Source: Candidatus Thorarchaeota archaeon
GTDB taxonomy: Archaea; Asgardarchaeota; Thorarchaeia; Thorarchaeales; Thorarchaeaceae
Reading direction: 5' to 3'
Assembly: GCA_021498125.1 (NCBI GenBank)
Contig: JAIZWL010000001.1
Location: forward strand, 899,434-963,433
DNA: 64,000 nucleotides
Shown here: one piece after another, positions 16,481 through 35,263 of the stretch
How positions within the stretch are numbered: the stretch's first letter is position 1
How the letters are laid out: every line of letters starts with the position of its first letter
The notes under the pieces: generated by a model
Seen by the model: the letters and a program-made list of their open reading frames with translations, nothing else
Told to the model about the DNA's origin: nothing
The model's database searches: none
Program-made: the position numbers and the translations under genes

Positions 16481-16571
16481 AATCTTAATAACGGAAAGGC
16501 CAATAATGATGGCGTATATCTCCATAATTCTTCTATGAAGACTATTTGATGATGCATTCAGTAGCTTTTTT
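16481..16571 (-). promoter_or_regulatory. Conserved two-box promoter element, copy C (toward the GH3 gene)
   Basis: On the minus strand, box 1 AAAAAAGCTAC (16571-16561) is followed at the same spacing as the other two copies by box 2 CCTTTCCGTTATTAAGATT (16499-16481). Box 2 looks like a BRE plus TATA (TTATTAAG). RNA would begin near 16455, about 100 bases upstream of the GH3 start. Confidence 0.6.
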
Positions 16572-16724: not shown

Positions 16725-16815
16725 AAAAAAGCTACTCAACGACAAGGCAATATTGGATATGGTGCTAATTGGTCTGAAATACAATGCTATTCTTGCCCTT
16801 TGCGTTATTACGATT
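16725..16815 (+). promoter_or_regulatory. Conserved two-box promoter element, copy B (toward the 15-gene operon)
   Basis: Box 1 AAAAAAGCTAC is at 16725-16735 and box 2 CCCTTTGCGTTATTACGATT at 16796-16815. Between the boxes the sequence has diverged, but the distance from AAGCTAC to CCCTTTGCG is 67 bases, as in copy A. The inferred RNA start is near 16840, about 75 bases before the first gene of the operon. Confidence 0.6.
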
Positions 16816-16917: not shown

Positions 16918-17667
16918 ATGATAAAGCAACTTGAGGAACAATTTACTGCTGCCGTGAGTTCTCAAGAACTCATTGCAGGGATGACGGATGTAACAAAACA
17001 TCTGCAGATCACATTCAACTCTGCAGATTGTAATATTATTCGTGCACTTCTCCAGGCTGATAGTAAACGTCCGGTACTGGTGTTAGTGATCGGCTTTCGA
17101 AGCGAGATGCTGATCCCATTCACTCAGACGCATTTCCGTGCAGTCGGAGAATATCTCCCATGTGATATCCCGGGTATTGTCCCAGCACTTGCAGCGGTAA
17201 TCAATCATCAAGGCAAAGGGATCGTTGCAAATGCCGTAGTACGTGGAGATGTGACTCGACTTGTCTTGGTCTTTGAGGGAAAGGCAAGTCATAAGGACTC
17301 TCCGATGACTTCGTTAGTGACCAGCCTGTACAGATTCTTCAAGAGTTGGATGGACTGGTCAGCGGTCCTCCTGTCCATCATCAATAATGATCCTGTTATT
17401 GGTGAGTGGTCGCTTGACTGGCGGGAGTTTTTGGCCGGCGAGAGCGGTCTCATGACAATGCCTTGGTTTTCGCCACTGACGTATACCGAGCGATCAATTG
17501 CGCTTGAGCGCATTGTGTTAGCATCCAAGGCACTTCTGTCGTCAGTTCTCTCAGAGGAACAGGCTGATGACCCAATGATCCGGTATCTTGACAGATGGAT
17601 GACCTATCTCAGGCCACTATCCCAGATAACCTATGATATGGATGAGTCCGAGGGGGCGCGTGCCTAA
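16918..17667 (+). CDS. Hypothetical protein, first gene of the 15-gene operon
   Basis: A 249-residue soluble protein with no motif I recognise. The N-terminal half alternates short strands and helices (VLVLVIGFRSEMLIPF, then IVPALAAVI); the C-terminal half is mainly helical. It starts at ATG 16918 after GGTGA, about 75 bases downstream of the promoter element. Its stop overlaps the next start as TAATG, so the two products are probably made in similar amounts. The context suggests an accessory role in the DNA-processing operon. Confidence 0.6.
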   Translation: MIKQLEEQFTAAVSSQELIAGMTDVTKHLQITFNSADCNIIRALLQADSKRPVLVLVIGFRSEMLIPFTQTHFRAVGEYLPCDIPGIVPALAAVINHQGKGIVANAVVRGDVTRLVLVFEGKASHKDSPMTSLVTSLYRFFKSWMDWSAVLLSIINNDPVIGEWSLDWREFLAGESGLMTMPWFSPLTYTERSIALERIVLASKALLSSVLSEEQADDPMIRYLDRWMTYLRPLSQITYDMDESEGARA

Positions 17668-18110
17668 TGTATGTTCAGACATCGATGAATGCTCACCAGT
17701 CATTAATGATCTCTGACCATGACTATCCTTGGCTTGCAGGTGCCGCCTATGGTCTTGGCGCAAGAGTATCCGTCCCCGCCGAGTACGTAAGATATCTGCA
17801 ACGAGATATTCGAGACCTCAATATCGAGCCTGTCAGACCCGGCGAGTCTTACGATCTCGATGATGGCGTATGCAGTTCTGCCTATGATGTCCTTGGGGGA
17901 CATGTGAGTGTCACCGGAGTGATCCATCCAGCAGGCCTCTTGTTTCCAGTGCCTGCACCCCTACAGGAATCGGTCACTGAACTTGTACGGGTGGCTGAGG
18001 TCTTAGATGAGGAATGGATGATCGTTCCCAAAAGTGAGATTGAGCGATTTATGAAATTGGTTCCCTTGAAGGGGCCACATGCTAAACGGTTGATGGAGGT
18101 GGAGTCATGA
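17667..18110 (+). CDS. Hypothetical protein, operon gene 2
   Basis: A 147-residue soluble protein of unknown function. The sequence suggests two subdomains: residues ~30-90 with a helix and acidic loop (SYDLDDGV) and residues ~90-147 with VIHPAGLLFP followed by helices. The start overlaps the preceding stop by one base, and its own stop overlaps the next start as ATGA, so it is translationally coupled on both sides. It directly precedes the RadA-family gene and may be its partner. Confidence 0.55.
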   Translation: MYVQTSMNAHQSLMISDHDYPWLAGAAYGLGARVSVPAEYVRYLQRDIRDLNIEPVRPGESYDLDDGVCSSAYDVLGGHVSVTGVIHPAGLLFPVPAPLQESVTELVRVAEVLDEEWMIVPKSEIERFMKLVPLKGPHAKRLMEVES

Positions 18111-19171
18111 TTTCTTTAGAAGAGGTTCCGGGTGTTGGCCCGACATTAGCAAAGAAGCTACGAGCCGTATTCGTCATAAGTGCAGAACTTCTTGCAGTTC
18201 AGAATCCTGTTGAGCTCCAGGCAAAGGCCAGCATTGGTGAAGGTACTGCTGTGAAGATCGTGCAGAACGCTCGTCGTCTTCTCAATATGGACGATTTTCG
18301 TTCGGGTATTGAAGTCGAGCGTGCTATGCGAGAGGCAACACGTCTGACCACAGGGATCGAGTCGTTAGACGAACACCTGATGGGCGGGATCGAAGAGGGT
18401 TCAATAATTGAGATATATGGGGCTGCACGTGGTGGGAAGACCCAGTGGTGTAGCTACTTTGCCGTGCGTTCACAGCTCCCGCGGGAGGAGGGCGGACTGG
18501 AAGGTAGGGTTCTCTGGCTCGACACCGAATCGAGTTTCAAACCATGGCACATTCGAGGCATAGCATACAGATACAAGATGGACCCTGATGTGGTATTAGG
18601 GAATATTGAGCACATTCCAATTGTTCTGTCGTCACAGATCACAGAGAAATTCCTTACGATCCCTCAACTCTGTGCAAAGGGTGACTACAAGTTAGTCATT
18701 GTGGACTCATTGACCAGTCTGTTCCGTGTCGAATATACTGGACTTGACACTCTTAGAATTAGGCAGCAGGCGATCAACTCTCTTCTAAATGTGATGCGCA
18801 GGACGGCAACGGCAACAAAGACGGTCTTTCTGTACACAAATCAGGTCATGGCCCATATCTCCACCTATGGCGGTAATCCCAACCAACCCATAGGCGGCCA
18901 CATTCTCTCGCACGGATCCGATTACCGTTTTTACACACGGCGAAAGGGAGCGGGCGAGCGTATTTTGACATTGAACGACAATGCCGGAATTCCCGAGTTT
19001 ACAATTAACTTGGTCAATGGCTGGGGCGGCTTCTACGCATCAAAGACGGACATGAAGGCGGTCGAACCCGAAGTGAAGGCGTATCTTGCGAGTCAGGGTT
19101 ACGTCATTGCTGGGACCGAGCCCATGGTGATGAGTGTGCCCGGCGCAGCAGCAGAAAGCGAAGAGGAGTGA
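18107..19171 (+). CDS. RadA-family recombinase paralogue with N-terminal helix-hairpin-helix
   Basis: A 354-residue RecA-fold protein with the domain order of archaeal RadA: an N-terminal helix-hairpin-helix (EVPGVGPTLAKKL, residues 6-18), then the ATPase core. Walker A is GAARGGKT (105-112) where RadA normally has GEFGSGKT; it still fits GxxxxGKT. Walker B is LVIVDSL (196-202), and the L2-region sequence from YTNQVMA through GGHILSHGSDYR is well kept. It should bind ATP and single-stranded DNA. The changed P-loop, the long acidic/alanine tail and the operon context suggest a dedicated paralogue and not the main RadA, though that gene is not in the window for comparison. Confidence 0.85.
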   Translation: MISLEEVPGVGPTLAKKLRAVFVISAELLAVQNPVELQAKASIGEGTAVKIVQNARRLLNMDDFRSGIEVERAMREATRLTTGIESLDEHLMGGIEEGSIIEIYGAARGGKTQWCSYFAVRSQLPREEGGLEGRVLWLDTESSFKPWHIRGIAYRYKMDPDVVLGNIEHIPIVLSSQITEKFLTIPQLCAKGDYKLVIVDSLTSLFRVEYTGLDTLRIRQQAINSLLNVMRRTATATKTVFLYTNQVMAHISTYGGNPNQPIGGHILSHGSDYRFYTRRKGAGERILTLNDNAGIPEFTINLVNGWGGFYASKTDMKAVEPEVKAYLASQGYVIAGTEPMVMSVPGAAAESEEE

Positions 19172-19620
19172 ATGGCATAGTGAGTCGAGAACGCGGTATG
19201 TTCAGAGTCTACGTCTGCCCAAAGTGTCGTAATGTCGATTACGTCTGCGTAGATGGCGAAGGAGAGCCTTCCAAATGTAGCAAGTGCGGTTACATCATCG
19301 TGGACACTCCCGGAATGATCTATGCGGTCACAGTGCAAGAGGCCGAGGAGAATGTCCAAGAGCTTGCTCAGATCATTGAAGTGCAATCTCGTGTGGGACG
19401 CATCTCTCGGGGGCGTGGAATCAAACGGCGGGTCCAGGACATCATCACTACGTTAGTCGAGATGAATCACGGTCGTCCTGTCTTATTCTCTAGTGTATTG
19501 CAGGAATGCATCGATGCTGGTATTGAGGTTTCACGAGCGGTCCACTTCATCACGCTTCTTGAGAGCGAGGGTCGGATTTCGAGTGATGGTATTGTTGTTG
19601 AGATAAAGGAGGATTACTGA
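19168..19620 (+). CDS. Zinc-ribbon plus winged-helix protein (DUF5817-like)
   Basis: The 150-residue protein begins with a four-cysteine zinc ribbon, CPKC and CSKC about 20 residues apart, followed by a helical linker and a C-terminal winged-helix (residues ~85-150). The ribbon and linker resemble archaeal DUF5817 proteins. A DNA- or RNA-binding role is likely, either as regulator of the operon or as an adaptor for its enzymes. Possible starts are GTG 19168 (overlapping the previous stop), GTG 19180 and ATG 19198; the ribbon needs only the last. The next gene starts 2 bases after its stop. Confidence 0.65.
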   Translation: MNGIVSRERGMFRVYVCPKCRNVDYVCVDGEGEPSKCSKCGYIIVDTPGMIYAVTVQEAEENVQELAQIIEVQSRVGRISRGRGIKRRVQDIITTLVEMNHGRPVLFSSVLQECIDAGIEVSRAVHFITLLESEGRISSDGIVVEIKEDY

Positions 19621-19622
19621 GA

Positions 19623-20237
19623 ATGACTGAGGCAATAAAACAGGTCTGGAGTGGTCGGCAAGCATCCGGGATCTCTCAGCGGTCCATGATCAATCTGGTG
19701 AATCTGCTTCTCAGGGACACCGACCACCGAATTACTATCTTACAGAGGGGTGCAGGCCCCGACCCTGAGGTGTATGTAGTTACTACTGTTCAGTGGCGTG
19801 ATCGTGATGCGACCCGCCCCTTGCTGCCTCAATTACCTCGACTTCTCTCATTGTTGGAGACCCTGCGAGGAACTCGTGGCGTGCCAAGTCAGATCTATCT
19901 TGACAGCCTTGATGGTGTGTCAGTATTTCTCCCCACTGGGACGCACCTCTCTCAGATTCCCACGACCTCGAAGGATAGTGTACGGAAGCTGATGGACCTT
20001 GTTGAAGAGTCGGTCAGTCATCTCTATTCAACAATGCAGGAGGTCGAGTCATGGTTCTGGAGAGCGGCACGACGGAAAGGGTTCAGTCCTCAGATTGTTG
20101 AGCGAATGGCACGCAAGGAACGGCACTTTGATTCCATCGGACTCGAACATAACTTTCACGAACTGTTGCGGGCCTACTTCTCCGTTCGATTCAGGATCCA
20201 TCGGAGTGAGTCCGTGCTTCATGTGGAGGGAGAATGA
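19623..20237 (+). CDS. Hypothetical protein, operon gene 5
   Basis: A 204-residue soluble protein without a recognisable motif. The N-terminal half looks alpha/beta (HRITILQRG, YVVTTVQWRD), and the C-terminal half is helical and rich in Arg/Lys (FWRAARRKGFSPQIVERMARK), which could contact nucleic acid. ATG 19623 follows AAAGGAGGA. Its stop overlaps the XPD start as ATGA, so it is a candidate XPD partner. Confidence 0.55.
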   Translation: MTEAIKQVWSGRQASGISQRSMINLVNLLLRDTDHRITILQRGAGPDPEVYVVTTVQWRDRDATRPLLPQLPRLLSLLETLRGTRGVPSQIYLDSLDGVSVFLPTGTHLSQIPTTSKDSVRKLMDLVEESVSHLYSTMQEVESWFWRAARRKGFSPQIVERMARKERHFDSIGLEHNFHELLRAYFSVRFRIHRSESVLHVEGE

Positions 20238-22192
20238 TGACTTCAGCGGCACTGAATCCTATGCGATATTTTCCATATACTCCTAGGCCGCATCAGGACA
20301 GTGCCGTGGAGCTTGCTGCTGATGTCTTCTACAATCGTTCGGTCGGCCTTCTCTCAGCCGATTGTGGTGTTGGAAAGACGATTGCAGTTCTTGCTGGTTA
20401 CCTTGCAGCACGCGCAGATGATCCCACGGCTCGACTGTTTGTAGTCACACGTACCCATTCGCAGACACGGGTATTTGAGTCAGAACTGGAAGTCCTTCGT
20501 CGAGCTGATCCACAGCTCACAGCCACTTCGCTGGTCTCTCGTGCACGAATGTGTCCTCTAAGGTCTCAGATGGACTCGTTGGACAATTCTGGGTTCATGC
20601 ATGCCTGCTCTATGATGATCCGTACTGGTCGCTGTTCGTACTTTTGGAGCATGTACTCAAAGAGCGAAGGCCGCGTCAAGCTTCGAGATAGTGCTAGAGG
20701 AATAATCTATGACCTGCTCTCTCAGGGTGTTGTCACTCGCAAGGTTGCAGAGGATGTCTCCCACTCTGAGGGGTTCTGTCCGTATGAGGTTCTCAAGAAT
20801 GCAGCACGTGATAGCAGAGTCATCATAGGTCCCTATTCTTATCTATTCCAGAGCAAGGTCCGTGATGCAACGCTCGCCTTCATCGGAGTTGAACTTGGCA
20901 ATCTGGATGTTATCGTTGATGAGGCGCACAATCTTACCGATCATGTTCTTGACTCGGAGACCGCACGCCTCACCGGGTCGGATCTGATCTGGCTACGGGA
21001 AAAACGTGACAATATCGTCAAGACCACTGGGGCACAGTGGACTGGAGATGCAATTGATTTTCTCTGGGAGACCCTCCTCTTAGGTCTCGATGGTCTTGGG
21101 AAAAAGTCCGAACGGCAGCTGAACAAGTGGGATGTTGCCCCTCGTTTTGTCAATGAGGCTTCTCTCAAGACCATGATGATGAAATCGCGTGATAGTACCA
21201 ATGACCCTGATATGCTTGCGGCCAGCGAGACCCCTCTTGACCGTATGTTGGAATTCCTCTATGCTGCGACACAGGCTGTCAAGAGTGATGACTGGCATGT
21301 GACACTTCATCTGAGACCGTCACGCTTCGAAGAGCCCGATGTGGCCCGTGCCTCACTGACTGTGCGACCTTTCAACTCTGCCGCATTAGCAGGTCCTGTT
21401 CTCAAGTCTGCACGCTCGGCGATCCTGATGTCCGGTACCCTGCGGCCAACAGAACACTATGCACGCCTGATCGGAGTGACTGGTGCCGCCTCCGCAGAAC
21501 TTGCGAGCCCGTATCCACGTGGCACACGTCTAATTCTGATCGATCGACAGCTCTCAACAAAATACACAGAGCGCAGTCCTTCTCTCTGGAAACATATCGC
21601 AGAGCGGATAAGTACTGCTCTCACAAGCATGCCCGCCAATAAGAGTGCTCTCGTGGCATTTCCCAGTTACGCAATGATGCGTGAAGTGATGAGTTACGAC
21701 ATAGATTTTGGATTCAGAGAGTCGCTCATTGAGGCTCCGGGTTCACGACTGGATGTGCTTGTTGATGCGGTCACGAGTGGTCCTCATGCGATATTCTCGG
21801 TGTACGGCGGAAAGTTCAGTGAAGGGATCGATATTGTTGAGGGTGGGTCAAGCTGTATCGATCTTATCATCGGAGTAGGAATCCCCTTCAGCCCTCCGAC
21901 AACGTATCATCTGGCACTACAGGACTGGCTTGACAATCACTTTGGGAAGGGGATGGGCTACTACTACGCCGCCACCATACCCACACTTCGAAAGGTCGTC
22001 CAGCTTATCGGTCGGCTTCGTCGGTCCCCAAAGGACTGGGGCGTCGTAGTTCTTCTCGATAGACGATTCTTGAGACATCTTCGGATCATGGGTGACGATG
22101 TTGCCTCGGACATGTGGCCCTTTTCCTCTGGTAGCGAGATGCATGACGCTATAACACAATTTCTGAGTTTGAGGGAGGCAGGTCTACTGTGA
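20234..22192 (+). CDS. XPD/Rad3-family iron-sulfur DNA helicase
   Basis: A superfamily 2 helicase of 652 residues that should unwind DNA 5' to 3'. Walker A is ADCGVGKT (residues 42-49) and the DEAH box is VDEAHNL (228-234). Between them are four cysteines at about 107, 125, 134 and 182, in the spacing of the XPD iron-sulfur domain. The C-terminal half has the motor-2 motifs, including LMSGTLRP, FSEGIDIVEGG and QLIGRLRRSPKDWG. Overlaps join it to the genes on both sides. In archaea XPD usually stands alone, so its place inside an operon of recombination proteins is informative. Confidence 0.92.
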   Translation: MMTSAALNPMRYFPYTPRPHQDSAVELAADVFYNRSVGLLSADCGVGKTIAVLAGYLAARADDPTARLFVVTRTHSQTRVFESELEVLRRADPQLTATSLVSRARMCPLRSQMDSLDNSGFMHACSMMIRTGRCSYFWSMYSKSEGRVKLRDSARGIIYDLLSQGVVTRKVAEDVSHSEGFCPYEVLKNAARDSRVIIGPYSYLFQSKVRDATLAFIGVELGNLDVIVDEAHNLTDHVLDSETARLTGSDLIWLREKRDNIVKTTGAQWTGDAIDFLWETLLLGLDGLGKKSERQLNKWDVAPRFVNEASLKTMMMKSRDSTNDPDMLAASETPLDRMLEFLYAATQAVKSDDWHVTLHLRPSRFEEPDVARASLTVRPFNSAALAGPVLKSARSAILMSGTLRPTEHYARLIGVTGAASAELASPYPRGTRLILIDRQLSTKYTERSPSLWKHIAERISTALTSMPANKSALVAFPSYAMMREVMSYDIDFGFRESLIEAPGSRLDVLVDAVTSGPHAIFSVYGGKFSEGIDIVEGGSSCIDLIIGVGIPFSPPTTYHLALQDWLDNHFGKGMGYYYAATIPTLRKVVQLIGRLRRSPKDWGVVVLLDRRFLRHLRIMGDDVASDMWPFSSGSEMHDAITQFLSLREAGLL

Positions 22193-22785
22193 ACTTTCGT
22201 GATCTTATGCTTTACAAATGGTACATCGTGGGAGCGCTTGTTATCGCCTTTGTTGCTCGTTACATCATTATTAGTCAAGACATCGTATCGACTGTGGCTG
22301 TGACTGCTGCTGTTGGTATTGTGATCATCTTGGCTCTCTCATCACGGGCTCTTGCGGGTAGACCGGAGATACTGTGGAACGAACCGATGGGTGTGATGGT
22401 CATCCTTCGGCCATGGATCGTTGAGGTCAGTGCCGCACGCTTGATCACCAGTGTGCCCTTGGGCATTGATCTGGAGCATTCTGCTGTGAAGGCATTACGT
22501 GCTCTTCATCGGGTCACTCGTGAGGCGCAGAATGCGTCCGTGAAGTTCTTCGTGATGCGTCCACTTGGTGATGGCACTACTCGTATTGGAATGATGGTCA
22601 CCCGTCGAGGCTTCCGGTTTCACAATGGTGTTGCAAAGGCCAATGTCTTAGCCAAGGCTGTGTCGGAGTACGCCGCGGTACTGGAGGGATCTCTTCGTGC
22701 AGCCTATCCTCACGTTCCAGTAGTTCGCGCAGGTCTTGCGGAATTGCTTGGTGTCTATTCAGGAGGTGTCTACGGAATTGCATGA
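22189..22785 (+). CDS. Hypothetical membrane protein with two N-terminal helices, operon gene 7
   Basis: The 198-residue protein has two hydrophobic segments at about residues 12-30 and 34-52, then a soluble alpha/beta domain of ~145 residues. The GTG start overlaps the XPD stop. The hairpin-anchor-plus-cytoplasmic-domain layout resembles the N-terminus of the ATPase encoded two genes downstream. It could hold the machinery at the membrane; no family is recognised. Confidence 0.6.
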   Translation: MNFRDLMLYKWYIVGALVIAFVARYIIISQDIVSTVAVTAAVGIVIILALSSRALAGRPEILWNEPMGVMVILRPWIVEVSAARLITSVPLGIDLEHSAVKALRALHRVTREAQNASVKFFVMRPLGDGTTRIGMMVTRRGFRFHNGVAKANVLAKAVSEYAAVLEGSLRAAYPHVPVVRAGLAELLGVYSGGVYGIA

Positions 22786-23053
22786 GCTTCACATACCTCC
22801 TGGGATAAGTCTAGACCGGATCATGCATATGCTTAAGGTGGGCCATGGATATTCTTGGCAGATTCTTTTCAAGCATCCACTCCTCCTCTCCCATGGCACA
22901 CCTCCACCCGGTCCAATGCCTGAGGTCTTAGTCGTTGGTCCGGACCGTCTGATCTTTGAGGATCCTACTGATTCCTCCCTTGAACGGTTCCAACGTCTGA
23001 TCGATCTGTTCTCACGGCAACCAGTACTGGTCATTGAGGGTGATTTGGAGTGA
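22778..23053 (+). CDS. Small hypothetical protein, operon gene 8
   Basis: The frame is open from TTG 22736, but that would overlap the previous gene by 50 bases. TTG 22778 lies 9 bases after AGGAGGTG and gives a 91-residue protein starting MHELHIPPG, which I prefer. The product is soluble, with a proline-rich loop (SHGTPPPGPMPEVLVVGP). Its stop overlaps the GTG start of the large ATPase, so it probably accompanies that protein. Function unknown. Confidence 0.55.
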   Translation: MHELHIPPGISLDRIMHMLKVGHGYSWQILFKHPLLLSHGTPPPGPMPEVLVVGPDRLIFEDPTDSSLERFQRLIDLFSRQPVLVIEGDLE

Positions 23054-25404
23054 CGAAACGAACGATCATGGGTGGCAAGCCCGAGACCGACCCCCTTGCA
23101 GAGCTTGGTGCAAAATTCTCCAAATCGGTTCCAATGGACCATGTCTTCTGGATGAATCGAGCACGACGTATCCCGATGTGGAGAATATTCCTTCTCTCTC
23201 TGACCGTGTTTATTCTTGGTTTCTATCAACCTGTAGTGATGCTCACGGGGGCCATTATCATCTTGGTCATTATCTGGTTGCTTCCGGGGCAAAGACCAGC
23301 TCGTGAGGAGGCAGCAATTGCATCTAATGCATGGACCCATGTTGAGTTTCCTGAGGTGACACTGGCCGTTGAGAATGATGTTCTCTTATGCAAGTCGCAT
23401 CATGGTACTCACTATGTCACAGGAATGGTCCTTCCCGAGGCTTCAGGTCGGTTGGCCGGAGACCTCAGTGCCCTTCTAAGATCACTTCCTATGGACCATG
23501 GTTTCACGCTTGTCGTAGAGCTTGACCCCGAACCTACTGATTGTGTTCGCGAGTCCGGGGTGGTGGAAGATCTTCAGGAGGTCTTCTTTGACGAGATGCC
23601 TGACGCTCAAATTGATAGTTTCTTCCTGAGTCGAGGCTTTATCTGGAGCACACGCACAGCAATTGTCGGGCATGTCGCATCTCCCGGCGACGTTCCGATC
23701 TTTCAGAGTTCTGTTGTTGGTGCACTTCCAGAGACCCATTGGACACCGATCAAGAGCAGGTCTCTGGCCCAATCAATTAACGAGTTTGATGTGAGTGGGT
23801 CACGAGGCTTCTATGCGACTGGGAAAGAACTCTCAGAGTGGTTGGTCCAGCTTGCTGGCGAGCTTGCCTCAGAGATCGGAGGGAATGTTCCCGGGGAATT
23901 TCTTAGTCCACTTCGTCCACCATCCAGTACCTATCCTATCGGGCGAGTGATCAATCCCGAGACCCTTCAGATCGGTTCTCCTGCCGGGCTTGATCATAAT
24001 GACTTTCTGAACGGGCTTCTGATTGGTGGCGGCACAAATGATGATCGACGCCATGTTCTGACCTTGGTGGTACAGCGGCTACTCGCGCAAGGAAAACGTG
24101 TGGTCTACATCGCTACTGATCCCACTGCTCGTAATATTGCGGCTCTTGCACCTGATGGAATATGCCTGACCTTGGGCCGTGATTTTGTGCTCAATCCGAT
24201 GGACCCTGAGGGGATACCTCAGAAGTCCTATGTGAGTCAGTTGATGAAGGCGCTAGAGGTTGTACTATCAACAAAACTCAGGGGTGCAGTGGAACTAGAA
24301 CTTGCTCTAATGAGGGCAATATCAAGTGGAAGTGCTACACTCGCTGATGTCCGGCTTGATGATGTGATCGACGACGATCCCGATTCCGGACTGGCAACAG
24401 CCCCCTCACGTTCCTCTCCTTCCATGAACCAGTCCGAGTATGGCCTTGCTGGAATTCAGAGGCTCTACAAGGGTGAGGGTGCCAATGCATTTTATGGGAC
24501 TCAGAGTGCACCCACTGACCTGATCGCTCAACACGGTCTCACAGTAATTCTTGCAGGAATTGACCGCGCCGAGATCGAAAAGTTCGCTTTGGATCTACTT
24601 GCCATCAAATTTGCAGGACTGCGACCTGATCCCGATCTCGTCATCATCTTCGAGAATGCTCCCAATTTCAAGACACGCACGATGCCGGAGCGAAGTCAGG
24701 AGCCTTGGCGTGTATCATGGGTTGAAGTGATGATCAAGCAGCTTCTACATCGGGGCGGTCTTGTCTTTGCGACTGATGACTTCAACGGTCTTCCCAAGGT
24801 CATTGTCTCACAGTTTTCTGCCGCGATGATGTTTAGGCTTCAGAACACTAGTGACATCTCAATAGCAAGCGATCTGCTTGGCTTGAGTGTCATTCAGCAT
24901 GGTCTCTACAGTTCCTCACGTAGATCGCCGCAGGAGTCATCATATCTGCGCACTATGCCACAGGGAACCGTCCTCTTCAGACCGATCGCGGCAACTACCT
25001 GTTTTCCGGTCAAGCTCGATTCCGCTCCCGAATTAGTACCACTTGACATGGATGCTGTTGAATCACGTCTTGCTGCTCTTGTCTCTCCTAAGGAACCAGA
25101 GAGCGAGGAACGACGTGATAGTCTTCTCTTCAGGGTGGCAGGTCGGGATCATGCTCTCGCTCTTGAGGTACTGCGCCTGCTTGAGAGGTACGAACCCTTA
25201 ACGACTGGGGCCATTCAGCGATTCCTGCGTTCGACACAGGGAGAAGATGTAGACATTGAGGGTGTGCTCTCTCGTCTAGAACGGGCCAGTATGGTCCTCC
25301 GAGGACACGAGGTTCATGGTAATGTCTCGTACATCAACTTCAGGCTTACAATGAAGGGCGCAATGGCATTGAAACAGGCTGAGCAGGAGGCGAAGGACAC
25401 TTGA
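23050..25404 (+). CDS. Membrane-anchored VirB4/HerA/CedB-like ATPase with eroded P-loop
   Basis: A 784-residue protein. Two hydrophobic segments at about residues 45-60 and 62-79 anchor the N-terminus, followed by a ~220-residue beta-rich domain and an ATPase-like core. The core has landmarks of the HerA/VirB4 DNA-pump group: IGRVINPETLQIG leading to a strand-loop-helix, and the downstream FVLNPMDPEG element. The P-loop position is LLIGGGTNDDRRHVL (residues 324-337), lacking the GxGKS/T, and the Walker B strand is LVIIFENAPNF (530-540). The C-terminal ~90 residues look like a winged helix. It resembles CedB/VirB4-type membrane ATPases of DNA transfer, but hydrolysis is doubtful. Confidence 0.6.
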   Translation: MTKRTIMGGKPETDPLAELGAKFSKSVPMDHVFWMNRARRIPMWRIFLLSLTVFILGFYQPVVMLTGAIIILVIIWLLPGQRPAREEAAIASNAWTHVEFPEVTLAVENDVLLCKSHHGTHYVTGMVLPEASGRLAGDLSALLRSLPMDHGFTLVVELDPEPTDCVRESGVVEDLQEVFFDEMPDAQIDSFFLSRGFIWSTRTAIVGHVASPGDVPIFQSSVVGALPETHWTPIKSRSLAQSINEFDVSGSRGFYATGKELSEWLVQLAGELASEIGGNVPGEFLSPLRPPSSTYPIGRVINPETLQIGSPAGLDHNDFLNGLLIGGGTNDDRRHVLTLVVQRLLAQGKRVVYIATDPTARNIAALAPDGICLTLGRDFVLNPMDPEGIPQKSYVSQLMKALEVVLSTKLRGAVELELALMRAISSGSATLADVRLDDVIDDDPDSGLATAPSRSSPSMNQSEYGLAGIQRLYKGEGANAFYGTQSAPTDLIAQHGLTVILAGIDRAEIEKFALDLLAIKFAGLRPDPDLVIIFENAPNFKTRTMPERSQEPWRVSWVEVMIKQLLHRGGLVFATDDFNGLPKVIVSQFSAAMMFRLQNTSDISIASDLLGLSVIQHGLYSSSRRSPQESSYLRTMPQGTVLFRPIAATTCFPVKLDSAPELVPLDMDAVESRLAALVSPKEPESEERRDSLLFRVAGRDHALALEVLRLLERYEPLTTGAIQRFLRSTQGEDVDIEGVLSRLERASMVLRGHEVHGNVSYINFRLTMKGAMALKQAEQEAKDT

Positions 25405-27611
25405 CCGTCATGATTGAAGATATCTCCTCACAGGTGCTACACATCGTTGGCTCTCTGAACATGCAACCACGTGGCGTGCAAGAGAGAGCAATAGAACATG
25501 GTCTTCTTGACGGAAAGAGCATCATGATCAGCTCGCCAACAGGGTCGGGGAAGACCCTTGTCGGAGAGATGGGAGCGCTCCGCGCAGTTCTCTCAGGGAA
25601 GCGTGCAATGTATCTTGTGCCGCTGCGGGCACTTGCTGGTCAGATCCATGATGTTCTTACAACGCACTTTAGCAAGTACAACATCAAAGTTGGTGTCAGT
25701 ACTGGCGATTTTCATCTTGATGCAGAACACCTCGCGCAATGCGATATCGTCGTGACCACCTATGAACGAGCAGACTCCCTTCTCCGTCGAAATGCTGCTT
25801 GGCTTTCCGAGCTGGGTACGGTGGTCATCGATGAGATTCAGACGATCTCAGAGCCCGGGAGGGGCGCACGTCTGGAGTCGCTCATTATACGACTCAGACG
25901 ACTCATTACTGACCTGCAGATCGTTGCCCTGTCTGCAACAATAGGGGAACCCGATGAATTGGCTGAGTGGCTGGGTTGTGACTTGGTGCACTCAGAGGAT
26001 CGTCCGGTTCCCCTTCACTACAGTATTGTTCCGACAAGTGACCGTTTCAAGACCATGCATAATCTTGTCATGACCACAGTCCGAAGTGATGGCCAGGTGA
26101 TCGTCTTTGGACGTACCCGCAAAGATGCTGAGAGATATGCGACACGTCTTGCAATTGATGTTGGGCGACAGATGACCAATGCTGAAAAGACCAATCTGGA
26201 TTCCGAACTGGGATCAGTCGAGAACTTTGATGTCAATCTTCCTCCAGAGCTTAAGGCGTTGTTGCACGACTCGGTGGCTTTCCATCATGCTGGCCTCTCA
26301 TATGCCGCACGTGATCTCGTTGAGCGCCTGTTCAAGAGAGGGCTTGTCCGGGTCATCTGTGCAACTGCCACTCTCTCTGCTGGAATTGATTTTCCTGCAC
26401 GAACGGTCATAGTGGTCAATGCTCGTTCACCTCAGGACCATCGCCGGCTCTTGTCGGCAAATAGGATCCATCAGATGTTGGGACGCGCAGGAAGACCGGG
26501 GAAGGACAAATTTGGTATTGGCATTATTCTTGCAGGTAGTGATGGTGAGGCGAGCCACCTTCGCCAGCGTTACTTTGATGTCTTTCAGGATCCCGAGACC
26601 GATCAAGAGGTTCTCATTCCAAAATATGAACGAGTACGAAGCGTGCTTAATGAGTCAGAGGCTCTCACCGAGCAGCTCTTGGTCGCGCTTGATGCGTTTA
26701 ATGAGGTTTCACTTGACGAGCTTGAGGACACAGTCTTTGGTGAGTCCTATCTGGTCTTTTGTGGCATCCGTGACACACGATCACCGCTTCGCCTGCTCAA
26801 TCTTGGTGAGATATCGGCAACATCTGCGATAGAAAAGCATGCATTAGGCGATACGATCCGTGCAGCGCGTGAGAACGTCATCGGTCGGGTGGTCCTTCGT
26901 GAGAAGAATGACACTACCATTGGGGGGTTGGCTCGTGATTGGGATGGAGCGCAATATACCTGTAGGTTCTCTTCACGGGTCTCTTCAGACGGACTGGTTG
27001 AAGGTCCGATGTGTTCATGCGGGACTCCCATTGACGGATCTGGGATTCTCTGTTCCCACTTGGTCGCGCTGGGGTATGCCGCCTCCAAAGAACTAGGTTC
27101 CCTTGCAGACTATGTGATCCCCCTTGCTCTGGGCGAGACCAGTCCTTTCCGTGTTCTGGTACGCCTCGATCTTGCTGAGGGCGGTTTCGAAGGCAAGGTA
27201 CGACCTACTCCTTTAGGCCGATTGGTGAATCGCCTCTATCTGCGAATCTCGACCATTCGTGAGATGCGTGCACTGTTACCCTCGGTACATGATAGTGCTG
27301 ACCTTCTCTGGCTATTGCGTCATCTCATCTCACTTGAGATGGGCTCGGAGGTCAACGAGTCGTTTGACGAGTTACTGGCGGGTCTGGTATCGACTGATCA
27401 GCCTCTCAGTGTCCTTGCTGCAAATGCGGGGCTGAGCGAGGGTGATGCATACGGTCTCGTAGATACTGCTCGTTGGTTGACGACTGCAATTTCTGTTGTT
27501 GCTGATCATGGTGGTCTTGTTGAGACCGCTACACTGGCTCAATCACTGTTACTGGCTCTTGAGCGAAAGAGCCCGGAGACAAAAGCTACTCAATCTAAGG
27601 AGAGTGAATAA
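25401..27611 (+). CDS. Ski2/Hel308-type helicase with SWIM zinc motif
   Basis: A superfamily 2 helicase of 736 residues. It has Walker A SPTGSGKT (45-52), motif II as DEIQ (144-147, where the family has DExH), motif III SATIGEPDELAEWL and motif VI QMLGRAGRPG, so the Ski2/Hel308 assignment is firm. After the motor and winged helix comes a module with Cys538-x-Cys540 and Cys551-x-His553, the CxC...CxH pattern of SWIM zinc domains, which bind DNA or proteins. Helical sequence after it may be a ratchet-like domain. The start is TTG 25401 (overlapping the previous stop, 10 bases after AGGAGG) or ATG 25410. The SWIM insertion is not part of standard Hel308. Confidence 0.88.
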   Translation: MTVMIEDISSQVLHIVGSLNMQPRGVQERAIEHGLLDGKSIMISSPTGSGKTLVGEMGALRAVLSGKRAMYLVPLRALAGQIHDVLTTHFSKYNIKVGVSTGDFHLDAEHLAQCDIVVTTYERADSLLRRNAAWLSELGTVVIDEIQTISEPGRGARLESLIIRLRRLITDLQIVALSATIGEPDELAEWLGCDLVHSEDRPVPLHYSIVPTSDRFKTMHNLVMTTVRSDGQVIVFGRTRKDAERYATRLAIDVGRQMTNAEKTNLDSELGSVENFDVNLPPELKALLHDSVAFHHAGLSYAARDLVERLFKRGLVRVICATATLSAGIDFPARTVIVVNARSPQDHRRLLSANRIHQMLGRAGRPGKDKFGIGIILAGSDGEASHLRQRYFDVFQDPETDQEVLIPKYERVRSVLNESEALTEQLLVALDAFNEVSLDELEDTVFGESYLVFCGIRDTRSPLRLLNLGEISATSAIEKHALGDTIRAARENVIGRVVLREKNDTTIGGLARDWDGAQYTCRFSSRVSSDGLVEGPMCSCGTPIDGSGILCSHLVALGYAASKELGSLADYVIPLALGETSPFRVLVRLDLAEGGFEGKVRPTPLGRLVNRLYLRISTIREMRALLPSVHDSADLLWLLRHLISLEMGSEVNESFDELLAGLVSTDQPLSVLAANAGLSEGDAYGLVDTARWLTTAISVVADHGGLVETATLAQSLLLALERKSPETKATQSKESE

Positions 27612-27614
27612 TCG

Positions 27615-29081
27615 ATGGCAATACTTGACGAAAAGGGTATCATACCTACTGAGATGCGCGGGACTGCACCTGACACCCCGAATGATATTGAGACCGCGCT
27701 GAATAAGACTGGCTACCATTCGTGTTCGTTTCCAAATGGATTCACTTTTGGTGTCAAATTTGAGGGGCTACATGGAACTCGCGGTGTCCATGTGGATGTT
27801 GTCATTTGCTTGGACTTGCGAGTCGCTCGTTTCGGCGCGAGTGGGCTTGCCATGCGTGCTGCGGTCCTTGAGACCGTGAATCGGACTCTTGATCAAATAC
27901 TGGTCGATGTGGGACTTGGCGGTCTATTTCAGGAGCAGTCTGTCTTGACGCCACGTGGTAAGGTCCGAATGCCTATTCTTCGTAGTCCTGACGGAAGGAG
28001 CTCTTCCTATGTTCATGAGACACGCAATATCTATGTGATCACCGACGGAGTGCGGCCCTCCATTGATCTCTCATGGTTGACGGACTCAAAGCGAATTGTT
28101 CCCGCCGCAGAGTTTGCTCTTCTGAGGAACAGTGATGCGCGTGCTATGTTGCCGGTCCTGACAGAGAAGGTCACTCCCGATAAATGGGTCGCACTAGAGC
28201 ATGCCGTGAAGACGGGTTGGTATAGTGTGATAGCCTTGGTCGGAGTTCTTGTCGGACTGGCGACCTTGGCGAACAGTATCAGTTTCGGTGTGGGTACACC
28301 ACTTCTTCCTCTCCTCCTGACTCTCTCCTCCCTCACAGCCTTTTTGTATCTGTTCAGGCAGAGCTCGGCAGATATTCAGCGCTTTGAGGGGTACTGCGTC
28401 GTGGAGCGTCAGCGCTTGGATGTCATTGGTGATAAGAACCGGATAGATCAAGCCCTTCGTGAGAACAGTTCGATGTTGTCCATCGTTGGAGACCTCAACT
28501 TTATGATCTCGCCTCTTATGGCCTCCGCGGCAGAACAGCTTAGGGCAGCAGACCTTGATGGAGCTGTGTCCTCTGCATGTTCGATCTTGGACGAGTGTGT
28601 ACGAAGTTCTCCCTCTCGCATCTCATCGGATGATGCTCTGAGTAGTGCAGATGAGGGTCTCGCCAAATTCTTGGGGCTCTTTGAGAGTCTTGGTACTCCT
28701 GTAGAACAAGAACGGCTCGCATTGGCCTATGTGGCTTTTACTGGGTATCCTGTGAACACTCTTACTGAGGCAGAGGTTGCAGAGCATATTGGGATTCTCA
28801 ACAACTCTCTCTTTGACGCTGGAATTCTGAGACCTCAGGTCAAGGAGTCGGTGGATGATCTGCTTAATGCATGGGCCATGAAGATGGCAGCAATGGATCT
28901 CACCCGTGAACTTGAGGCCGAGACCGGGTCCGCTGAAGAATCCCCCTCTGAGACCGATGAGGCTGCGACTGGGGATGAGGAGTTAGCCGTGGCAAGTGAG
29001 ATCGTGAGCGCGGGTCTCACAGAGAAGGACGGGCCCGCCATAGATGAAGAGATGCCTGTCATTGAAGCCGAGGATGCGTGA
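27615..29081 (+). CDS. Hypothetical membrane protein, operon gene 11
   Basis: The 488-residue protein has a ~195-residue N-terminal domain of mixed alpha/beta character, two hydrophobic helices at about 203-221 and 228-247, a helical C-terminal region to about 425, and a very acidic Glu/Asp/Ala tail. Such a tail often binds basic partners or mimics DNA, which would be notable beside DNA enzymes. ATG 27615 follows AAGGAGAGTG. Only one base separates its stop from the next start. No family recognised. Confidence 0.6.
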   Translation: MAILDEKGIIPTEMRGTAPDTPNDIETALNKTGYHSCSFPNGFTFGVKFEGLHGTRGVHVDVVICLDLRVARFGASGLAMRAAVLETVNRTLDQILVDVGLGGLFQEQSVLTPRGKVRMPILRSPDGRSSSYVHETRNIYVITDGVRPSIDLSWLTDSKRIVPAAEFALLRNSDARAMLPVLTEKVTPDKWVALEHAVKTGWYSVIALVGVLVGLATLANSISFGVGTPLLPLLLTLSSLTAFLYLFRQSSADIQRFEGYCVVERQRLDVIGDKNRIDQALRENSSMLSIVGDLNFMISPLMASAAEQLRAADLDGAVSSACSILDECVRSSPSRISSDDALSSADEGLAKFLGLFESLGTPVEQERLALAYVAFTGYPVNTLTEAEVAEHIGILNNSLFDAGILRPQVKESVDDLLNAWAMKMAAMDLTRELEAETGSAEESPSETDEAATGDEELAVASEIVSAGLTEKDGPAIDEEMPVIEAEDA

Positions 29082-29082
29082 T

Positions 29083-29757
29083 ATGACGGATAGTAACGGG
29101 ATTCTCTCACAGTTAGGCCTCTCCGGCCTCATTCATGTCTGGGGGCTACCTGCCTCGGGGAAGACCCTTTTTGCGGTGAATGCGGCTGCAACTGCATCTC
29201 GTACTGGGCGGGTGGAGTGGTTCAATTGCGATGGCAAACGAAGTTTTGTTCATTCACTGATGCAGGTCGTAAAACAAAAGCAGGGTGACCCAAGTAACGT
29301 CATGGTCTCTTTTCTCACGGACCGGGAGGATATGCTTCAGACCATTCTGGATCTTCCTAAATCGTTAGATGATGATGTCACTTTGGTAGTCATTGACCCT
29401 CTCACAAGGGTCCTTGATATGGCACGCACAGATCCCATTCTCTGGGGACGGGAACTCGTCGAGGACGTGCTCCCAGTACTTGCCAGTCTTGTGTTAAATC
29501 ATTCAACTGATGTACTCATCATCAGTGAGAGCCGGACGTTGATAGATCGAGGTACTATTGCTGTGCATCACTCAACTATTCGGCGTTGGAGCGATTTCGA
29601 TGTTCTTGTGCAACGCGGGATCTTGAGTGGCCGCTCTGAACTCATCATAGGCAATGATACTCCTACTCCCAGTGTTCTTGGTGATCTTGTCCTGCTCAAG
29701 TCTACGGGTCCTGACGTGATCGTACATGGGTCCACTGATTACTTTCAGGAGGTCTGA
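29083..29757 (+). CDS. RecA-fold ATPase, RadB-like
   Basis: A 225-residue single-domain RecA-fold protein with a good Walker A, GLPASGKT (residues 21-28), and Walker B VTLVVIDPLTRVL. It lacks the N-terminal helix-hairpin-helix, so in layout it resembles RadB, the short archaeal recombinase paralogue that modulates RadA. RadB often binds ATP with little hydrolysis. The open frame extends upstream to 29044, but ATG 29083 just after the previous stop is the natural start. It is the second of three RecA-like genes in the operon. Confidence 0.72.
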   Translation: MTDSNGILSQLGLSGLIHVWGLPASGKTLFAVNAAATASRTGRVEWFNCDGKRSFVHSLMQVVKQKQGDPSNVMVSFLTDREDMLQTILDLPKSLDDDVTLVVIDPLTRVLDMARTDPILWGRELVEDVLPVLASLVLNHSTDVLIISESRTLIDRGTIAVHHSTIRRWSDFDVLVQRGILSGRSELIIGNDTPTPSVLGDLVLLKSTGPDVIVHGSTDYFQEV

Positions 29758-29763
29758 AGAGTA

Positions 29764-30681
29764 TTGCTGCTATTGCCGCTCAAACGGATCATTCGATACC
29801 TCATCATCGGTGTCTTGTTGCTAGTCTTTGGAGGACACGCGCTGTCGCTCATTGTGTCGATAGTGCTTCTCTTTAGGCTGGGTAATCCCTTGCCTGCTAT
29901 TGTAGTGATAGGTCTCATGTTCTTTCTATCGTGGTTTGAGGGGCATGTGCGACTACATCAGATTATCCATCGAGTCGTCCGTATGATCACTCTGGTCGCT
30001 GTAGGATTCACAGCAGTGACGACATTTTTCATCTGTCTGGGATTTGGGTATGCAGTTGCAGTGGCCGCGCCTCTCGTGCTTGTCATACTTGCAGCAGTGA
30101 TGAATGACTGGTCAGGTCTACAATCGTTCTTCTCCTTGAAATTCATGGTCCCACGGAAGACCACCGGCATGGGTCTCTTTGCGTATCTCCTGAATTCCGA
30201 TCCCCCCGCTAATACCGAGATCATGATCACATCGTCTGATAGCTTTGATCTGCTCTTTCGTCTGATTGCCAGTCGCCCCCTGCTTCCAATCTCTCTTGTT
30301 GTCTACAGGGACTTTGTTGCAATTGTCTTTCGAATCGATGACCCCACACTCCTGTCAAAGACCCATGAGCTCTTGCGTTCGTGGAGTATTGATCTGGCGC
30401 CCCCCTCCACTCTTCTAGCAAGAGCGATCATAGCAGGTCCTGCCCTCATAGGCCTGTCCGAGTCAACAGAGTATATGCTCTCCTCCGATCCCGATACAAT
30501 TGCAGCTCTTGTAGAACGACAAATTCCAGGTATGATCGTGACCAGTAGTTCTGGTGCTATTGCTGTTGCTGTTCCAAGTGAGAATGCAATTGGAATGACT
30601 GGTGTCCCCGTTTCCTCGTCTATTGTTGCAACCGCTTTCCGAAATCAAATGATTGCCTCCTTGGTGATGAACGATGTCTGA
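29764..30681 (+). CDS. Hypothetical membrane protein with about four helices, operon gene 13
   Basis: A 305-residue protein with about four hydrophobic segments in residues 9-110 and a ~190-residue soluble domain. The start is TTG 29764, 10 bases after AGGAGG. Its stop overlaps the next start by 8 bases. It is the most membrane-embedded member of the operon and could form a channel or platform; this is inference and no family is recognised. Confidence 0.6.
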   Translation: MLLLPLKRIIRYLIIGVLLLVFGGHALSLIVSIVLLFRLGNPLPAIVVIGLMFFLSWFEGHVRLHQIIHRVVRMITLVAVGFTAVTTFFICLGFGYAVAVAAPLVLVILAAVMNDWSGLQSFFSLKFMVPRKTTGMGLFAYLLNSDPPANTEIMITSSDSFDLLFRLIASRPLLPISLVVYRDFVAIVFRIDDPTLLSKTHELLRSWSIDLAPPSTLLARAIIAGPALIGLSESTEYMLSSDPDTIAALVERQIPGMIVTSSSGAIAVAVPSENAIGMTGVPVSSSIVATAFRNQMIASLVMNDV

Positions 30682-31405
30682 TACTACCCGTTTCTCTCTC
30701 GACTCTCTGGCAATTGAGACCCGCCCTGTTCTGAGGCTCCCACCACGTGTGCTTCATAATTTCCTTGGCCGATTGTTGCGCCCAGGGGAGATCTCTCTCC
30801 TTCATGGTCCTGAGAGGGCACCGCTATCGCTTCTAGCTCATTGGATCTCCATCCATGCCACTTCTAGAAAGCATCCGGTTGCCTATCTTGACTCAGCCAA
30901 TAATTTCTCCCCCGTGACGGTACGTTCGATGTTGGCTGATGAAAAGAAAGTCAATGCTGTCTTGAAGTTGGTCGGTGTTGGTCATCCTCTTACTCTCTCT
31001 GACCTTGAGCGACTGGTCAAGCGAGCAGCCTCTATGGAGGGGCTTCGTCTTATTGTTGTAGACAGTCTCACAGGGTTACTGAATCTCTCAGGTACTCCCG
31101 GAACAGCCGAGCGCCAGCGGATGCTCTTTCGAAGCATGGACTCCGTACGCCAGCTGCTCGTCTCATCTGACACCCATCTGATGATGACCGATCACTCTTC
31201 TGCATGGTCTTCCCAATCGGCACCACTTGGTGGTCTTGTCTTGGCGCACGCAGTCGATTCCATTGTTCGAGTCATTCGTCTGCCTGAGACTAAGGAGATC
31301 TTTCGGCTCGTTATCGAGCGTTCTTCTGCACCCTCTGACTTTGGCGGAATTGTTATTCGTATCAATCATCGAGGTGTGATGTCCGTCAAGCGTGGAGGGG
31401 TCTGA
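30674..31405 (+). CDS. RecA-fold protein without a P-loop (RadB/KaiC-like paralogue)
   Basis: The 243-residue protein has the outline of RadB/KaiC-like RecA domains: a strand and loop SLLHGPERAPLSLLAHW where Walker A should be, a good Walker B LRLIVVDSLTGLLN, and a late strand LMMTDHSSAW. In the first loop GxxxxGKT has become GPERAPLS, so the invariant Lys is missing and nucleotide binding is unlikely. It probably serves as a structural partner of the two P-loop-containing RecA proteins. Overlap with the upstream gene and the 2-base gap downstream show coupling. Confidence 0.6.
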   Translation: MSDTTRFSLDSLAIETRPVLRLPPRVLHNFLGRLLRPGEISLLHGPERAPLSLLAHWISIHATSRKHPVAYLDSANNFSPVTVRSMLADEKKVNAVLKLVGVGHPLTLSDLERLVKRAASMEGLRLIVVDSLTGLLNLSGTPGTAERQRMLFRSMDSVRQLLVSSDTHLMMTDHSSAWSSQSAPLGGLVLAHAVDSIVRVIRLPETKEIFRLVIERSSAPSDFGGIVIRINHRGVMSVKRGGV

Positions 31406-31407
31406 GG

Positions 31408-32397
31408 GTGGGTGTTAGGAACTTTGACTTCATACCTTGGATCTGGTCTTCAGCATCAGAGATCGAGGGGGCGATCGCAGTTGACATGCCCAATTACCTC
31501 TCGCGTCGAATGGCTGTGATGCGTACACATGGTGGTCATCAGTCGGAGCGCATCCCTTTTGCGCACGTCACGGTGGCACTGAGTCTGATCAAGGCCACAC
31601 TCTCTGCCTCTCTCCTTCCAATCCTCATATTTGATGGTTCACCGGAGGCATTGAAGCGGCCGTGTAATCCTGAACTCCTGCATCAGGCACGAGACCTCTA
31701 TGATCGGTTTATTCGAGATGAGGACCCCTATGATGAGGAGATCGCGGAGCGTCTTACTCGAAGTCCCGCCCTGCTCAGTTACTTTGCACAGTCCCATGTT
31801 GCGGACATTGCCCGAGCTCTTGGCGTGCCCACTGTAGTCGCGCCCTCCGAGGCCGAGATGTATGCTGCGGTCTTATCGCGCGACTCGATAGTGACCACTG
31901 TGGTCTCGAATGATGTTGACGCTCTCTTGTTTGGTGCGAAGCATGTGACCAAGCAGTTGATCCTCTCACGTAACGAGCTTCTCAGAGTCACGATGGATGA
32001 TGTCCTTAGGTTGACCGGTCTCTCTCTCAGCCAGCTTCGTGACCTTGCCATCATCTGCGGGTGTGATTTTCATAAGGAGGGTCTGAAAGGGATCGGTCCG
32101 CGTAAAGGGATCGCTCTGTTATTGCGCCATCATGATCTTGAGCATGTCCTCAAGGCGAGAGGTCTGAGTAGTTCTCAAATTGAGCCGTTTATTATTGCTC
32201 GTGAGACCTTTGATGAGGCAGAAGGTATCATAGTAGAAGAGCAGATGCCGCGTCTGAGTCCTCCCATTGCCTCACGGGTTGAACGGTTTCTTCGGCCAAT
32301 CTTTGGTAGCCAGAAGGCTGAGCAGATTTCAGAGGATGCGCGGCGACGCTGGAAAGATTTTGGTATTGAACAGGCCTCTCTAGAGATGTGGTTCTGA
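31408..32397 (+). CDS. FEN1/XPG-family nuclease with C-terminal PIP box
   Basis: A flap-endonuclease-like protein of 329 residues, last gene of the operon. All seven catalytic acids of FEN1 have counterparts: Asp26 (AVDMPNYL), Asp76 (LIFDGSPE), Glu148 and Glu150 (APSEAEMYAA), Asp169 and Asp171 (SNDVDALLFG) and Asp220 (CGCDFHKEGLKGIG). The helix-hairpin-helix GIGPRKG follows. The C-terminus QASLEMWF (322-329) is an excellent PCNA-interacting peptide. The GTG start, 8 bases after GGAGGGG, gives the MGV N-terminus that FEN1 requires. Overall sequence is divergent, so this may be a paralogue of the housekeeping FEN1. Confidence 0.85.
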   Translation: MGVRNFDFIPWIWSSASEIEGAIAVDMPNYLSRRMAVMRTHGGHQSERIPFAHVTVALSLIKATLSASLLPILIFDGSPEALKRPCNPELLHQARDLYDRFIRDEDPYDEEIAERLTRSPALLSYFAQSHVADIARALGVPTVVAPSEAEMYAAVLSRDSIVTTVVSNDVDALLFGAKHVTKQLILSRNELLRVTMDDVLRLTGLSLSQLRDLAIICGCDFHKEGLKGIGPRKGIALLLRHHDLEHVLKARGLSSSQIEPFIIARETFDEAEGIIVEEQMPRLSPPIASRVERFLRPIFGSQKAEQISEDARRRWKDFGIEQASLEMWF

Positions 32398-34294: not shown

Positions 34295-34385
34295 AAAAAA
34301 GCTACGCATCGCAACATCAAATCGTTGTCATATCGCGCCTAATTAACTACTTGTACCTATTATACCCCTTTGCGTTATTAAGATT
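34295..34385 (+). promoter_or_regulatory. Conserved two-box promoter element, copy A
   Basis: Box 1 AAAAAAGCTAC at 34295-34305 and box 2 CCCTTTGCGTTATTAAGATT at 34366-34385, with the spacing found in the two copies at 16.5-16.8 kb. The implied RNA start is near 34412. A second TATA-like TTTTTTATAC follows at about 34407-34416. Confidence 0.6.
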
Positions 34386-35119: not shown

Positions 35120-35263
35120 ACTCCAAAATAATTGATTTAGAAATGATCGGGATCCGTTGCTTACAGAGCCACCCCACACACCACACCCCAACTATCGTCC
35201 TTTCTCTTTCCCTTGGAGTCGGCTCGGATCCCGGTCCATCCCATATTCAAAGAGGTGTTGATC

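Follow-up and report, generated by a model that had tools for sequence, protein, structure and literature searches.

Human HelQ, a relative of Hel308, is stimulated by Rad51 and needs its winged helix for DNA binding (PMC9976902). Among other Ski2-like helicases, the KOW arch of Mtr4 and FRH is an accessory domain that projects from the winged helix (PMC5931499). SWIM proteins of the Shu2/SWS1 type carry the motif CXC...CXHXXA, which includes an alanine (PMC6316741). Here we describe a helicase from a Thorarchaeota genome that shares features with each of these systems. Its gene lies in a 64,000-nucleotide stretch of DNA, referred to below as the window, which was the subject of this analysis.

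The helicase gene occupies positions 25401-27611 of the plus strand and encodes 736 amino acids, so the open reading frame, strand, and coordinates given by an earlier sequence-only reading of this DNA are borne out. Translation is assigned to a TTG codon at 25401 that overlaps the stop codon of the preceding gene, and an in-frame ATG is available at 25410. Alignment shows that the SF2/Ski2-like motor motifs are complete. The RecA1 domain (residues ~20-200; 25458-26000) carries Walker A (SPTGSGKT), motif II (DEIQ), and SAT, and the RecA2 domain (residues ~205-395; 26013-26585) carries motif VI (QMLGRAGRPG). The motor is very likely to be active.

The same reading had called this a Ski2/Hel308-type motor, and both sequence and structure comparisons agree. 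The best solved relatives found by sequence search are Hel308 structures (E ~4e-73), and an AlphaFold2 model of the whole protein (pLDDT 89) aligns with Hel308 structure 2va8 at Z 38 over 573 residues that span positions 4-736 of the protein. The NCBIfam model PRK02362 yields 352.2 bits, which is under its curated cut-off of 887, and the Hel308 equivalog model NF040935 yields 277.9 bits, which is far under its cut-off of 1200. A separate, canonical Hel308 is encoded in the same genome. Motif II had also been singled out because it reads DEIQ instead of DExH. The tetrapeptide is indeed present (residues 144-147), but it was over-read as a family trait, since 15 of 22 aligned family members have Q at its last position and 7 have H (DEIH). 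Given this alternation, DEIQ marks mainly Thorarchaeia and carries no wider weight, and we ruled it out as a special feature.

What sets the protein apart is an insert of ~120 residues within the winged helix, which an alignment with the canonical Hel308 of the same genome places between the second helix and the one that follows it. The first part of the winged helix (residues ~410-457; 26628-26771) is followed by the insert with its SWIM module (residues ~458-578; 26772-27134), in which beta strands cover residues 496-538 and a helix covers 552-565. The remainder of the winged helix (RPTPLGRLVNRLYL) then resumes (residues ~580-616; 27138-27248) and leads into the equivalent of domain 4, the ratchet (residues ~617-724; 27249-27572). 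By sequence, the signal for a winged helix followed by domain 4 is weak (PF21280 13.9 versus a cut-off of 27), and the model nonetheless aligns with Hel308 through this region. The proposal that the SWIM signature substitutes for the usual Hel308 continuation is thus wrong, and is ruled out by both the canonical Hel308 alignment and the 2va8 model alignment. The sole Hel308 domain missing from the window helicase is domain 5 (helix-hairpin-helix, RAR motif), which is kept in two relatives (L034 and L035).

Several lines of evidence identify the insert. The CxC (538/540) and CxH (551/553) pairs noted previously are present (CSC-x10-CSH; 27012-27059, plus strand), and the resulting quartet C538, C540, C551, and H553 is invariant in all 33 aligned homologues, which come from many Asgard families. 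When the isolated domain is aligned across these homologues, the four positions are the only invariant columns, with identity as low as 15%. AlphaFold2 folds the isolated insert with a pLDDT of 93 into four strands, with CxC after the last strand and CxH at the start of the helix. Re-alignment of this model against the 1000 best solved chains from Foldseek gave a single stand-out match, residues 114-214 of human ZSWIM8 (Z 6.2, versus 3.3 for the next chain). Without re-alignment, a Foldseek search with the SWIM fragment reached a best E of 0.05, which is below significance, and a sequence profile of the domain found no match among solved structures. Shu2 does not appear in the Foldseek matches listed, which counts neither for nor against a relationship.

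A domain search gave a divided answer. Pfam SWIM (PF04434) does not match the window helicase even at E 5, so the protein itself lies below detection, but the model passes its gathering cut-off (19.6) in the relative L035 (27.7 bits) and in a paralogue with a degenerate motor that is described below (20.9 bits). Taking these results together with the invariant quartet and the fold, we conclude that the insert is a SWIM domain, as had been suggested from the sequence alone. We are highly confident that the module binds zinc through the four predicted ligands.

The distribution of the motif among related proteins is also sharply divided. Among the matches listed, every one of the 18 complete top-ranked Asgard loci (Thor, Jord, Frey, Loki, and Borr) has the SWIM motif, and a scan of genome contigs found it in none of the ~60 other Hel308 loci. 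This clean split and the conservation of the quartet exclude a chance motif; SWIM-Hel308 is a new variation on a known repair motor. A profile of the winged-helix/SWIM region detects members in 137 of the 227 genomes of the Asgard phylum, and in 49 of its 61 genera, at E 1e-5. Matches at E 1e-8 all fall within the Asgard phylum in a search of 392 relatives that included many genera outside it, and viral contigs provided only distant or SWIM-less helicases. Thus, in the genomes sampled, the subfamily is found only in Asgard archaea. Our literature search, which covered papers outside subscription, returned none in which SWIM occurs alongside both Hel308 and archaea, and none in which the SWIM zinc finger occurs alongside Asgard.

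A quick motor tree places 18 of 19 rows labelled canonical Hel308, including that of the window's own genome, in a group apart from the SWIM forms (SH-aLRT 99). The deep branches of this tree lack resolution, and it is therefore silent on whether SWIM-Hel308 had a single origin. The 19th row is a SWIM-less Lokiarchaeota paralogue (L077:494-2773) that is nested among the SWIM forms and has cleanly lost the insert. Separately, one genome carries a SWIM-Hel308 gene that is split by a TAA codon after ~114 residues (L062:9962-12151), possibly a pseudogene or an assembly error.

Most Thorarchaeia genomes (~42 of 47 by score with the winged-helix/SWIM profile) also encode a paralogue of SWIM-Hel308 that we call the pseudo-helicase. 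In the window's own genome, this 811-amino-acid protein is encoded on the minus strand (L158:8563-10998; ~214.6-217.0 kb of C1). Five pseudo-helicases aligned in full have lost Walker A (DYDEAYD for GSGKT), motif II (VERLD for IDEIQ), and motif VI, and all five keep the CCCH quartet. SWIM is the only domain that Pfam finds in the protein. Retention of the quartet in a catalytically dead paralogue indicates that the winged-helix/SWIM part has a role without ATP hydrolysis. The pseudo-helicase gene does not adjoin repair or recombination genes.

The active-type helicase, in contrast to its dead paralogue, belongs to a block of 13 open reading frames on the plus strand (18107-32397), many of whose products resemble recombination proteins. 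The sequence-only reading counted three RecA-fold neighbors, and all three are confirmed. The first (18107-19171) is a RadA paralogue with a helix-hairpin-helix and Walker A (Rad51 Pfam, E 1.5e-53), and a canonical RadA (473 bits) is found elsewhere in the genome. The second (29083-29757) is RadB-like with Walker A intact (E 2e-7), and the third (30674-31405) is a RadA/RadB-like protein (E 5e-12) whose Walker A is lost in 12 of 12 aligned orthologues. Upstream of the helicase lies a HerA-like protein with a transmembrane segment (23050-25404), which a profile search links weakly to HerA (E 0.009). All 10 aligned orthologues have lost the P-loop, so the protein is likely an inactive ATPase. The block further encodes an XPD/DinG-like helicase (20234-22192), a FEN1/XPG-like flap endonuclease (31408-32397), a zinc protein, and small or membrane proteins; transmembrane-like segments occur in several of the products. 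The XPD-like helicase matches a model for the type IV CRISPR-associated DinG at 272.8 bits.

The gene order of the block is kept in the Thorarchaeia loci examined, and the block is retained or lost as a whole. One genome (G224), whose genus elsewhere carries the block, is missing all of 18107-32397 and retains both flanks. At this exact empty site (L186:5679-9503), a GH3-like gene and homologues of the genes at 16918 and 17667 are followed by ~21 bases and then by the homologue of 32403, which identifies the block as an optional unit. Of 14 chosen Thorarchaeia genomes that lack the helicase, 12 also lack the HerA-like protein and the RecA protein of the block. Many of these genomes are fragmentary, with contigs that end nearby, and we therefore discounted such absences and counted only G224, in which both flanks are seen.

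The neighborhood recurs in other Asgard lineages. At four loci, two in Jordarchaeia (L064, L053), one in Freyarchaeota (L065), and one in f9 (L054), a SWIM-Hel308 only ~33% identical to the window protein sits beside RecA-like, zinc, RadA-like, and HerA-like genes, with the assignments at L064 backed by Pfam. FEN-like genes adjoin the helicase gene in the Jordarchaeia and Freyarchaeota loci. The conserved neighborhood, its loss as a block, and its recurrence elsewhere uphold the gene link between the helicase and RecA-fold proteins. Most Lokiarchaeota SWIM-Hel308 loci have no RecA-fold neighbor, and weak HerA-like matches are seen there. RadA-profile matches upstream of the Lokiarchaeota genes were considered and rejected as RecA-fold neighbors, as in L072 they comprise the helix-hairpin-helix only.

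Two further observations concern the regions around the block. A 20-bp element, CCCTTTGCGTTATTANGATT, occurs at 16481-16500 (minus strand), 16796-16815 (plus), and 34366-34385 (plus) of the window. These are its only three occurrences in the genome when up to 3 mismatches are allowed, and they lie upstream of the GH3-like gene, the 16918 operon, and the 34451/35213 unit. In 3 of 5 other genomes, different 20-mers are common to the same regions above the level in shuffles, which suggests co-regulation of these regions. The product of the gene at 35213-43096, which is 2627 amino acids long, has a region resembling prenyltransferases, a large number of Ig-like repeats, and a transmembrane segment at its C terminus, and it is probably a surface protein.

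Our preferred reading, to which we give a probability of roughly 45%, is that the window protein is a Hel308-type 3'-5' translocase whose SWIM domain forms a docking arm in the winged helix for other proteins of the block. By analogy with Hel308, the core would move along DNA at forks or at recombination intermediates. Much as the KOW arch does in Mtr4, the SWIM domain would protrude from the winged helix and dock proteins. It would bind other products of the block, the likeliest partners being one, two, or all three of the RecA-fold proteins. Such contacts could load the helicase on recombinase-coated intermediates or restrict it to them, and the FEN-like nuclease and the XPD-like helicase may then act downstream. 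Loss of domain 5 from the Thorarchaeia forms might have made regulation by partners more important.

Conservation and charge are informative regarding what the module does. Among Thorarchaeia members, mean identity is 56% for SWIM, 56% for RecA2, and 40% for domain 4, and the net charge of the insert in the window helicase and other Thorarchaeia members is near neutral (-5 to +3). A domain that is conserved like RecA2 and is close to neutral fits docking better than a basic grip on DNA, and we lean toward the view that SWIM is chiefly a protein-docking module. The competing idea that it gives the winged helix a larger surface for binding DNA and helps the helicase hold on to duplexes or forks in front of the motor, with the RecA-fold neighbors simply acting in the same pathway, is rather unlikely given this near-neutral charge. 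That idea does draw on the location of the insert, on the dependence of HelQ on its winged helix for binding DNA, and on relatives with a positive insert, such as L064 (net +9). We consider it improbable that the module is a structural stiffener or an inherited ornament without a partner, which would make the protein an ordinary Hel308 paralogue. The clean loss of the module by the Lokiarchaeota paralogue L077 speaks for this explanation, which accommodates poorly the invariance of the quartet in 33 homologues, its persistence in dead-motor paralogues, and conservation of the module on a par with RecA2.

If SWIM docks proteins, the identity of the partner is a separate matter. The gene association and the stimulation of HelQ by Rad51 (PMC9976902) make the RecA-fold proteins the leading candidates, and docking onto them is a plausible contact; naming a RecA-fold protein of the block as the partner is nevertheless a tentative proposal, which we hold at somewhat less than even odds. 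Counting against it are the missing RecA-fold neighbors at most Lokiarchaeota loci, the location of the pseudo-helicase gene away from recombination genes, and the variability of the alanine found in SWS1-type motifs. This position is A556 in the window helicase and is A, T, C, S, L, K, or Q across the family. Alternatively, SWIM could dock a protein without a RecA fold, such as the membrane-anchored HerA-like protein or the dead paralogue, and thereby form a membrane tether or a heterodimer. HerA-like genes accompany SWIM-Hel308 in Jordarchaeia, Freyarchaeota, and f9 and perhaps in Lokiarchaeota, several block proteins have transmembrane-like segments, and the dead paralogue is widespread in Thorarchaeia; the paralogue, however, persists also in genomes without the block, and we judge this alternative to be doubtful, slightly more so than the DNA grip.

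These findings define an Asgard-wide Hel308-like subfamily with a putative zinc docking module in the winged helix and a conserved dead-motor version, and they tie this subfamily to a discrete recombination gene block. Another question is what purpose an optional recombination module serves in archaea already equipped with canonical RadA and Hel308. A more far-reaching proposal, which we regard as speculative and unlikely in its entirety, is that the block encodes an undescribed Asgard recombination complex in which a HelQ-like helicase with SWIM would work with Rad51-like paralogues (RadA-type, RadB-type, and Walker A-less) and a HerA-like membrane tether. It would be an archaeal equivalent of the HelQ/Rad51-paralogue/Shu axis of eukaryotes, perhaps for DNA uptake or exchange. 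If true, such a complex stands in the phylum closest to eukaryotes. The locus offers a testable system for asking how a link between SWIM modules, Rad51-like paralogues, and Hel308/HelQ helicases arose before eukaryotes.

Among known systems, Hachiman HamB and other defense helicases resemble the window protein in their Ski2-like motor, to which the PADLOC matches are confined; the window helicase lacks a full-length HamB match, and HamA models found no counterpart among the ten proteins of the block that were scanned. We ruled out a defense-system reading since the matches are generic to the helicase family. The likeness to Shu2/SWS1 of the Shu complex consists of the SWIM quartet and the gene association with RadA/Rad51-like paralogues, whereas the nearest solved structure to the window SWIM is ZSWIM8. 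Because the alanine of CXHXXA varies across the family, we keep the protein out of the Shu2/SWS1 class. To our knowledge, Shu2 and SWS1 are not helicases. With PF04434 domains such as that of ZSWIM8, the window domain shares the CxC...CxH pattern, beta strands followed by a helix, and the fold match, but it lies under Pfam detection and is embedded in a helicase winged helix. The arch of Mtr4/Ski2 is likewise an accessory domain that a Ski2-like helicase bears on its winged helix (PMC5931499), yet this arch, with its KOW module, takes the form of a long stalk and serves RNA decay, whereas the zinc SWIM of the window helicase is compact and belongs to a DNA-recombination context. The closest counterparts by both sequence and fold are archaeal Hel308/Hjm and human HelQ, with which the window helicase shares the Ski2-like core of RecA1, RecA2, winged helix, and ratchet. 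It differs from them in its SWIM insert, in its lack of domain 5, and in falling under the Hel308 equivalog cut-off and outside the canonical Hel308 clade.
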